This document shows, in pieces, positions 1,155 to 41,277 of a DNA stretch of 64,000 nt. How positions within the stretch are numbered: position 1 is the first letter of the stretch; every line of letters begins with the position of its first letter. A model generated the notes under the pieces. It saw only the letters and a list, made by a program, of their open reading frames with translations, did not search any database and was not told the origin of the DNA. Origin of the DNA: Pseudobutyrivibrio ruminis AD2017 (GTDB taxonomy: Bacteria > Bacillota > Clostridia > Lachnospirales > Lachnospiraceae); contig NZ_AUJQ01000003.1 of the NCBI RefSeq assembly GCF_000424305.1, positions 310,001 through 374,000 of the forward strand, in the 5' to 3' direction. The position numbers were made by a program, and so were the translations under genes.

Positions 1155-1520
1155 GTTAAGTGTATGTTTGAAAATCTATTTTTCACTTAACAAAAAATCG
1201 GGCAAAAGTTAAGTGAAAATAGGAAATTAGATTTTACACTTAAAATTGCAAAATCCTGTTAAGTTTTCTGAGAAGAAAAATTTTTTCACTTAACTTTTGG
1301 GGATGATTTTGGGCTGCTGTTAGGATTATTTAAGTGTGTATTAGGTGTTTTTGATTTTCACTTAACAGGTAGTTAAGTGTGAAATGCTATCTTGTGAATA
1401 AACTTAACTATACTTCAAACTATTTAATCAAAGCTAAGTGAAAAAATTTTTTTCTTTCTCCCACTTAACCCGCTTTTCAATTTTTAAGTGGTAAATGGAA
1501 AATGGCGAAATTCACTTAAT
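1155..1520 (+). repeat. Array A: seven inverted-repeat units with GTTAAGTG/CACTTAAC arms
   Basis: This noncoding stretch holds seven units of 37-38 nt. Each has an 8-nt left arm (GTTAAGTG or a close variant), a 21-22-nt loop and a right arm (CACTTAAC or variant). Unit starts are 1155, 1208, 1258, 1329, 1372, 1433 and 1483; right arms start at 1184, 1237, 1287, 1359, 1401, 1462 and 1513. Linkers are 16, 13, 34, 5, 24 and 13 nt. Loops are AT-rich and differ between units. The array starts 19 nt after the araD terminator and stops 9 bp before the csoR -35 box. It aligns with the reverse complement of array B (40911-41277). It contains no plausible gene. Whether it acts as RNA hairpins or as DNA half-sites is unknown. 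Confidence 0.9.
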
Positions 1521-37837: not shown

Positions 37838-37895
37838 ATTTAGGGGTTGCATTTTTGCCACGATTGTAGCATTATAGTGAAGGAAATTTTATATT

Positions 37896-37978
37896 GAAAC
37901 GGGAGCTTGTAAACAGGCTGAGAGGAAGGTGTGACCTTCGACCGAGAACCTGATTTGGATAATGCCAACGTAGGGACG
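37896..37978 (+). ncRNA. TPP riboswitch (THI element)
   Basis: All conserved segments are present in order: GGGAGC (37901-37906), the T-loop segment CAGGCTGAGAGG (37914-37925), a variable P3 hairpin with GAAGGT..ACCTTC, then ACCTGATTTGGATAATGCC (37938-37956) and AACGTAGGGA (37957-37966 region). This is the thiamine pyrophosphate aptamer. It precedes thiE-thiD-thiC and is followed by a terminator at 37999, so TPP should cause premature termination. Confidence 0.97.
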
Positions 37979-37998
37979 CCGATTAATTATGATATTAC

Positions 37999-40910: not shown

Positions 40911-41277
40911 GTTAAGTGAAAATAGGAATAGTTGATATCCCACTTAAAAAATGGAAAGTGTGTTAAGTGAATATAAGAAAAATAAAAATTCACTTCAAAA
41001 AGCATAAAAATATTTAGGTATAATTAAGTTTATATGGGAAAACTATATTATCACTTAATAAGGTGATTGAGCTTTATAAGTTTAAATCTAATATGAATGA
41101 AATAAACTTAAGAAATTCAAAAGTTACAACTAAAAAGTTAAGTTTATAATATTTATTTTTTAATACACTTAACAGGATTTTGCATTTTTAAGTGAAATTT
41201 TTATTTTGTTTAATACACTTAACTTTTAAGCGATTGCGAGATAAGTGAATTATGAATTCATCTGTTTTTCACTTAAC
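40911..41277 (-). repeat. Array B: seven inverted-repeat units, diverged inverted copy of array A
   Basis: Plus-strand unit starts are 40911, 40962, 41023, about 41076, 41137, 41187 and 41240; each unit is about 36-38 nt with arms related to GTTAAGTG/CACTTAAC and a 20-22-nt AT-rich loop. Linkers are 13, 24, 16, 24, 13 and 16 nt. Read on the minus strand, the linkers (16, 13, 24, 16, 24, 13) match array A (16, 13, 34, 5, 24, 13) except around unit 4. The segment 41166-41194, reverse complemented, equals 1237-1265 at 27 of 29 positions. It fills the space between convergent thiC and the cytidylate-kinase-like gene and has no ORF. Confidence 0.9.

Follow-up and report, generated by a model that had tools for sequence, protein, structure and literature searches.

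Mirror-symmetric arrays of inverted half-sites dispersed in Pseudobutyrivibrio genomes, a possible binding platform for a DNA-lining protein

The window analysed here, a 64-kb stretch of Pseudobutyrivibrio DNA taken at its full length, contains two arrays of at least four inverted-pair units, designated A and B, and no others; ten shuffles of the window in 2-base blocks produced no array of this size. Array A has a class II aldolase gene and a terminator-like stem on one side, and on the other a promoter-like site and the gene for a metal-sensitive repressor (CsoR-type by Pfam), this site being one of 3 found in the stretch against 2.5 expected. Array B, which runs in the opposite orientation, is flanked by convergent thiC and cytidylate-kinase-like genes. 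The features, in window coordinates, are:

1109–1131, + strand: intrinsic-terminator-like stem (context), between the class II aldolase gene and array A
1155–1520, unstranded: array A, 366 bp, seven inverted-pair units, pseudo-palindromic, steps of 53-50-71-43-61-50 bp
1155–1191, unstranded: unit A1, GTTAAGTG-N21-CACTTAAC
1208–1244, unstranded: unit A2, GTTAAGTG-N21-CACTTAAA
1258–1294, unstranded: unit A3, GTTAAGTT-N21-CACTTAAC
1329–1366, unstranded: unit A4, TTTAAGTG-N22-CACTTAAC, about one helical turn off the standard place
1372–1408, unstranded: unit A5, GTTAAGTG-N21-AACTTAAC
1409–1432, unstranded: 24-bp linker of the 61-bp step of array A, a version of a partly conserved linker motif, TAAA-N3-TTTTAGGTAAA or its complement
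1433–1469, unstranded: unit A6, GCTAAGTG-N21-CACTTAAC
1483–1520, unstranded: unit A7, TTTAAGTG-N22-CACTTAAT
1530–1558, + strand: promoter-like TTGACA-N17-TATTAT (context), just outside array A and upstream of the CsoR-type gene
40911–41277, unstranded: array B, 367 bp, seven units, orientation opposite to A, steps of 51-61-52-62-50-53 bp
40911–40948, unstranded: unit B1
40962–40998, unstranded: unit B2
41023–41059, unstranded: unit B3
41075–41112, unstranded: unit B4, degenerate, TATAAGTT ... AACTTAAG
41137–41173, unstranded: unit B5
41187–41223, unstranded: unit B6
41240–41277, unstranded: unit B7

This layout had been anticipated in the original prediction, which described two arrays of seven units spanning 366 and 367 bp; the count is borne out, with the fourth unit of B (41075) degenerate, and the linkers given for A (16, 13, 34, 5, 24 and 13) agree. 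The near identity of 1237–1265 to the reverse complement of 41166–41194 is likewise reproduced, at 27 of 29 positions. The listed units also show the arms that A2 shares with B6, A5 with B3 and A7 with B1, as well as a G-C to A-T change on both sides between A5 and B3. The prediction was to fall if A matched reverse-complemented B no better than it matched shuffled sequences with the same arms. The true alignment scores 91.0, and 300 arm-keeping shuffles of B give a mean of 18.1 (sd 9.4) and a maximum of 51.5; counted by identities alone the same comparison discriminates poorly, the true value of 240 lying between the shuffled mean of 219.9 and the maximum of 241. A and B can accordingly be regarded as inverted, diverged copies of one element, but A is not the special partner of B, as better-scoring copies of it exist elsewhere: array A scores 178.5 against L024, on the same contig, and 135.5 against L026.

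Within the source genome (2.9 Mb, 21 contigs) the family has 13 array copies, A and B among them, all intergenic. These 13 places were obtained by grouping the 28 matches returned by a BLAST search with array A and the matches to the unit pattern TTAAGTG-N5-35-CACTTAA, of which there are 30, compared with 3 for the reversed control; 29 of the 30 have an inner length of 21 or 22 bases. Each array holds 5–8 units in 253–416 bp, chance extra units added by the finder in L024, L030 and L031 having been left out of the counts. The unit is GTTAAGT(G/T)-N21/22-(C/A)ACTTAAC, and units usually follow one another in the step order [53]-50-61-52-61-50-[53] bp, with the extra 53 on one or both sides, an order that makes the element mirror-symmetric. 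A full element thus carries 14 to 16 half-sites, TTAAGTG(AAA) or TTAAGTT(TATT), set as inverted pairs 21–22 bp apart, and it ends in an inverted half-site, sometimes imperfect, as does a MITE with its terminal inverted repeats. The same architecture is found in other Pseudobutyrivibrio species, and an alignment of 28 of the 39 arrays collected from several genomes matches throughout the element, with flanks agreeing between same-locus copies only. The half-site fits what we take to be the attC box consensus; attC sites of an integron were rejected on finding no ORF of at least 70 aa within any of the 39 arrays scanned, although in 4 of them a picked ORF overlaps an array end by 4 to 36 bases. 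The 24-bp linkers of the 61-bp steps (for example window 1409–1432) have a partly conserved, palindrome-like motif of their own, by eye approximately TTAACCTAAA-N4-TTTAGGTTAA, possibly a second type of site.

The units are also arranged with regard to the turn of the helix, a phasing that is well supported but not overwhelming. Over the 13 arrays of the source genome the coherence of unit centres reaches 0.88 at 10.25 bp (jittered null 0.42 ± 0.03), and over 22 arrays of other genomes it reaches 0.85 at 10.30 bp (null 0.39 ± 0.02), the null treating related arrays as independent; at 10.5 bp the values drop to 0.20 and 0.26, respectively, and weaker alias peaks stand at 8.7 and 12.5 bp (approximately 0.70 and 0.75 in the source genome). 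For steps below 80 bp (longer ones, such as 96–105, and overlapping units of 20 inner bases being excluded), lengths fall mostly at 39–43, 50–54, 61–64 and 71–75 bp, or about 4, 5, 6 and 7 helical turns, and those that fit no class well are 32.5 bp, seen twice, and 46–49 bp, seen three times. For one architecture alone, random step sets reach a coherence of at least 0.90 in 1.5% of cases, or in 8.7% if they are mirror-symmetric, so the strength of the phasing lies in the variants, whose departures from the standard steps are mostly of about 10 or 21 bp: 52 to 42, 61 to 72, 61 to 40, 52 to 63, 53 to 64 and 53 to 75. DNA wrapped left-handed on protein, as in nucleosomes, shows a period below 10.5 bp, and the array period, being below that value, would suggest left-handed wrapping here.

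The original prediction interpreted each array as a structured RNA of seven hairpins and took the A5/B3 change as evidence that base pairing is selected. Both arrays do fold better as RNA than any of 100 shuffles (z −4.1 for A and −6.2 for B), but a chain of inverted half-sites gives such values anyway, and the best predicted folds are mostly long-range rather than seven hairpins. A set of 189 units with perfect cores was drawn from five genomes, counting orthologous and duplicated copies. Standard pairing is found at the outer stem position of 63 of them, where shuffled partners give 92.6 ± 5.9, and at the inner position of 99, where shuffling gives 110.6 ± 5.7; in the source genome alone the figures are 23 of 72 (36.9 ± 3.4 shuffled) and 32 of 72 (41.0 ± 3.6). 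Variable positions at the stem edges therefore pair less often than shuffled ones, selection for pairing is not borne out, and given this deficit over 189 units the A5/B3 change is not representative. The commonest non-pairs are G...A and T...C, a result to be expected when each half-site can take either form, TTAAGTGAAAA or TTAAGTTTATT, independently. In Rfam the window at the gathering threshold gives only a TPP riboswitch elsewhere, and 6 of the 13 source loci give no match at E 0.1. RNA hairpins are hence rejected by the pairing test despite significant folding scores, and we consider that reading very unlikely; conservation of the arms as separate half-sites, retention of linker lengths and helical phasing point to a function in DNA and not RNA.

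That the arms are conserved as half-sites is seen from orthologous arrays. Thirteen pairs were compared and 11 cross-species pairs pooled, omitting L097/L040, which are the same stretch of one genome, and L029/L056, whose uncertain orthology led to its exclusion in advance. Differences affect 10 of 898 positions in half-site cores (1.1%), 182 of 1614 in inner spacers (11.3%) and 143 of 1017 in linkers (14.1%), and they number 6 of 152 for the base inside the core, 12 of 150 for the outer base and 236 of 1213 for the flanks; because L024, L028, L031 and L033 are each used twice, the pair counts are not independent. Gaps, taken in both directions as deleted/inserted, number 0/1 in linkers, 9/1 in spacers, 4/3 in cores and 107/275 in flanks, the last in part because 4 of the 11 pairs differ by a complete terminal unit (about 53 bp) that one member lacks. 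With L029/L056 added, cores differ at 36 of 976 positions and spacers at 257 of 1758. Half-sites and their spacing are conserved above the rest, as in a protein-binding array. The earlier claim of a homologous, dispersed and functional-looking element is supported in that arms are more conserved than loops; its further statement that loops drift faster than arms and linkers stands for the arms and fails for the linkers, which between species differ more than the loops do. A repeat decaying without present function might account for the shortened or missing copies of several species, yet half-sites that change about ten-fold less than spacers and linker indels that are almost nil between orthologues make it extremely improbable.

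The genes beside the arrays share little. Of the 26 proteins encoded directly beside the 13 source arrays, 17 were scanned with Pfam, representing 11 arrays; those at L035 and L036, the product of the patatin-like gene and a few more lay outside the scan. It identified an aldolase, the CsoR-type repressor, ThiC, a cytidylate kinase, an ABC-2 permease, a Fer4-domain oxidoreductase, a BD-FAE hydrolase, HSP20, flagellin, FlgN, HAD, DUF4317, a class II tRNA synthetase, DUF3237, UvrB and a peptidase S41; one 264-aa protein has no Pfam match. Among these 17 there is no recurrent partner gene, their functions being unrelated, nor any transposase, resolvase/recombinase or partition gene. Settings vary as well: the genes on either side of L024 share a strand, the left one encoding an ABC-2 permease, and at L053 both genes are of this type; L031 and L033 lie between divergent genes; and other arrays adjoin flagellin and a FlgN-like gene, UvrB or the class II tRNA synthetase. 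Unrelated neighbours in mixed orientations argue against a regulon. An array of operators for a regulator of the flanking genes would be in keeping with the operator-like half-site logo and inverted pairs, and with the position of A between a terminator-like stem and the promoter-like site of the CsoR-type gene. Against this, B is between convergent genes and upstream of neither, although other arrays do lie upstream of a gene; one copy separates two same-strand permease-type genes; the scanned neighbours have no common function; and, with all 30 perfect-unit matches inside the 13 arrays, operators of this form do not occur singly. We judge control of neighbouring genes to be an unlikely role.

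The original prediction proposed a search of other Lachnospiraceae genomes; as far as the searches extend, the family is not general to Lachnospiraceae and is seen only in Pseudobutyrivibrio. A three-half-site pattern found 26 stretches in a collection of 84,980 species, 24 of them in Pseudobutyrivibrio, one in Clostridium ihumii and one in Shewanella, and neither of the last two has a four-unit array. A single-unit pattern run on 116 genomes of 83 genera matched 14, comprising 11 of Pseudobutyrivibrio and 3 others with one or two units each, and a sequence-only model of 149 positions detected the element in 11 of the 29 Pseudobutyrivibrio genomes, or in 8 of 21 when only those of good quality are counted. 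In a three-gene tree of 25 genomes the array-bearing G000, G006, G011, G014, G018, G019, G021 and G025 form one clade with G015, which has none (support 0.998); the array-bearing G023 had too few genes to be included. G001 and G004 fall outside the clade, and their element matches are thin (one contig, C233, in the former and a best E of 1.8e-6 in the latter). Two further candidates were tried and rejected: a viral origin, as the three viral contigs that match the three-half-site pattern have no array of at least four units, and origin-linked placement, as the G011 copies among the matches listed, at approximately 97, 254, 653, 658, 927, 928 and 1743 kb of a 2.70-Mb contig, form no clear pattern around dnaA at 818 kb.

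Copies differ between relatives. Eleven source loci were compared, the patatin-like gene being named from reading its sequence. At the aldolase locus (array A; 26 genomes) an array is at the same place in the source genome and G014, and that of G011 is farther downstream; at the thiC locus (array B; 26 genomes) arrays occur in the source genome (G000), G023 and G014, species with diverged genes. At the patatin locus (20 genomes) the array is complete in the source genome, is down to a single unit in G018 and comprises three units in G006, at the edge of a contig. The HAD locus has no array in any of 9 relatives, with one half-site left in G018 and none in G023, G014 or G025, and none was seen in the 3 relatives found for the S41 locus or in the 3 for L035. 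At L036, where four relatives were read, G023 has two units (about 112 bp) more than the source genome and the other three have no array. The UvrB locus (L033), likewise shared by species whose genes have diverged, bears arrays also in G014, G023, G025 and G018, the first two with one unit more than the source genome. G018 is the only relative with an array at L032, and G023 the only one at the BD-FAE locus. At the flagellin locus there is an array in G025, and G006 has a five-unit remnant (L217) with several altered half-sites, perhaps an array that is no longer conserved. The unit losses at the patatin, HAD, L036 and L033 loci can be read as deletions between half-sites, and the remaining array-less loci have different flanks, making any insertion footprint unreadable. 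For most of the 11 loci, close relatives either lack the copy or have a reduced one, so none of the copies seems to be essential by itself.

This turnover is where the main rival has its force. The arrays could be non-autonomous mobile elements, MITE- or REPIN-like, each serving as the site of a transposase or recombinase encoded elsewhere, which spread and were later lost. They are discrete, with flanks that agree only between orthologous copies; they are present in many intergenic copies, one of them between same-strand genes (the left one an ABC-2 permease); at several loci (thiC, patatin, HAD and BD-FAE among them) a copy present in one species is missing from its near relatives; and their ends are inverted half-sites. 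Set against these points, none of the 11 loci offers a clean empty site with target duplication, array-less ones showing what look like deletions, or different or rearranged flanks; no transposase is encoded among the 17 of 26 source neighbour proteins scanned; the pattern-matching viral contigs lack arrays; and insertion alone does not explain half-sites that stay conserved in orthologues. Mobility is the lesser prospect, doubtful as a full account though a serious contender, and as copies differ between close species it does not exclude a binding platform, with which it may coexist.

The reading we prefer, with moderate confidence, is that the arrays are a DNA binding platform for a putative protein that lines one face of the DNA or wraps it, probably in an architectural role. 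Such a sequence-specific protein would contact TTAAGT in the major groove and make an inner contact to A/T-rich bases, and would bind the inverted pairs as dimers. With the pairs in one phase of about 10.25 bp, the bound proteins would line up on one face, so that seven or eight dimers could form a nucleoprotein complex of about 370 bp in which the DNA is probably wrapped or bent, serving to anchor or bridge the chromosome or to mark a domain. An architectural role is likeliest, in preference to control of neighbours, given that the neighbours are unrelated and the settings convergent, divergent and same-strand; architecture is favoured over mobility because half-sites and linker lengths are fixed in orthologous copies. 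A rigid, phased and mirror-symmetric arrangement that is apparently under selection predicts a dedicated protein lining or wrapping these sites. A bolder form of the binding platform, which we think rather improbable, would be a clade-specific chromosomal spool, in which 14–16 like protein contacts per element, in one phase at about 10.25 instead of 10.5 bp, keep about 370 bp wrapped left-handed round one protein assembly. Such spools, maintained by selection at about a dozen sites between genes, would, if real, be the bacterial equivalent of a centromere or positioned nucleosome.

Known systems offer partial parallels. The plasmid centromere parC, bound by ParR, is a repeat array that a protein lines or wraps, as is proposed for the arrays, which differ in their alternating inverted half-sites, their many chromosomal copies and the absence of a partition gene among the scanned neighbours. 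The matS and parS sites are dispersed, clade-wide, chromosome-organising single short sites for one protein, whereas the present elements are long arrays with no clear chromosomal pattern among the G011 copies listed. The res sites of the Tn3 family consist of inverted half-sites with subsites placed at whole helical turns. The arrays depart from these in having no recombinase or resolvase gene among the 17 of 26 neighbour proteins scanned. A res site measures 114 bp with sites I to III, and resembles the arrays in its dimer half-sites with variable centre and its several sites in a row (PMC9943657); the arrays, by comparison, are dispersed and mirror-symmetric, and fit as many as 8 similar sites into about 370 bp in place of three subsites with a crossover site. 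REP and REPIN sequences with their RAYT transposases are dispersed, extragenic inverted repeats that persist in a lineage, as the arrays are (PMC3116915, PMC8049555). REPs, however, are described as occurring hundreds of times, as singlets or doublets (PMC3116915), unlike 13 copies of a 5–8-unit array with no stem covariation and with helical phasing, and the REP tag GTAG or CGTC (PMC3733652) is not part of the array half-site logo. No family like the arrays was found in the literature, of which subscription journals are thinly covered, or in Rfam (the window and 6 of the 13 source loci), in agreement with the original prediction; the literature matches listed for the motif strings, and the one paper found for extragenic palindromes in Butyrivibrio, are unrelated. 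Dispersed bacterial palindromes are usually interpreted as RNA hairpins or mobile debris. Identifying the predicted protein would reveal a new system, chromosome-organising or mobile, in this genus of the rumen.

Some further observations concern the wider family and the window itself. Longer or differently spaced arrays, with up to 12 units and step runs such as 103-43-51-52, are present at L053 (4881–5527), L111 (2482–3128), L061 (4089–4583), L056 (1609–2048) and L112 (2802–3138), at an ABC-2 permease locus, a flagellin/FlgN locus and others, and may represent a second subtype. In G011, L100 (2826–4285) has two near-alike arrays 1,094 bp apart around one 193-aa ORF, with short flanking sequences common to both on either side, as if array and flanks had been duplicated together. 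In the window, the TPP riboswitch lies at 37889–37994 on the + strand, upstream of a same-strand run of ORFs that includes thiC. Upstream of the aldolase gene at 359, positions 250–350 are predicted to form a hairpin of −41.1 kcal/mol (z −6.8), and positions 300 to 370 have more than 100 short matches across Pseudobutyrivibrio genomes and no Rfam match at E 1; this palindrome looks like a second, unrelated dispersed family.
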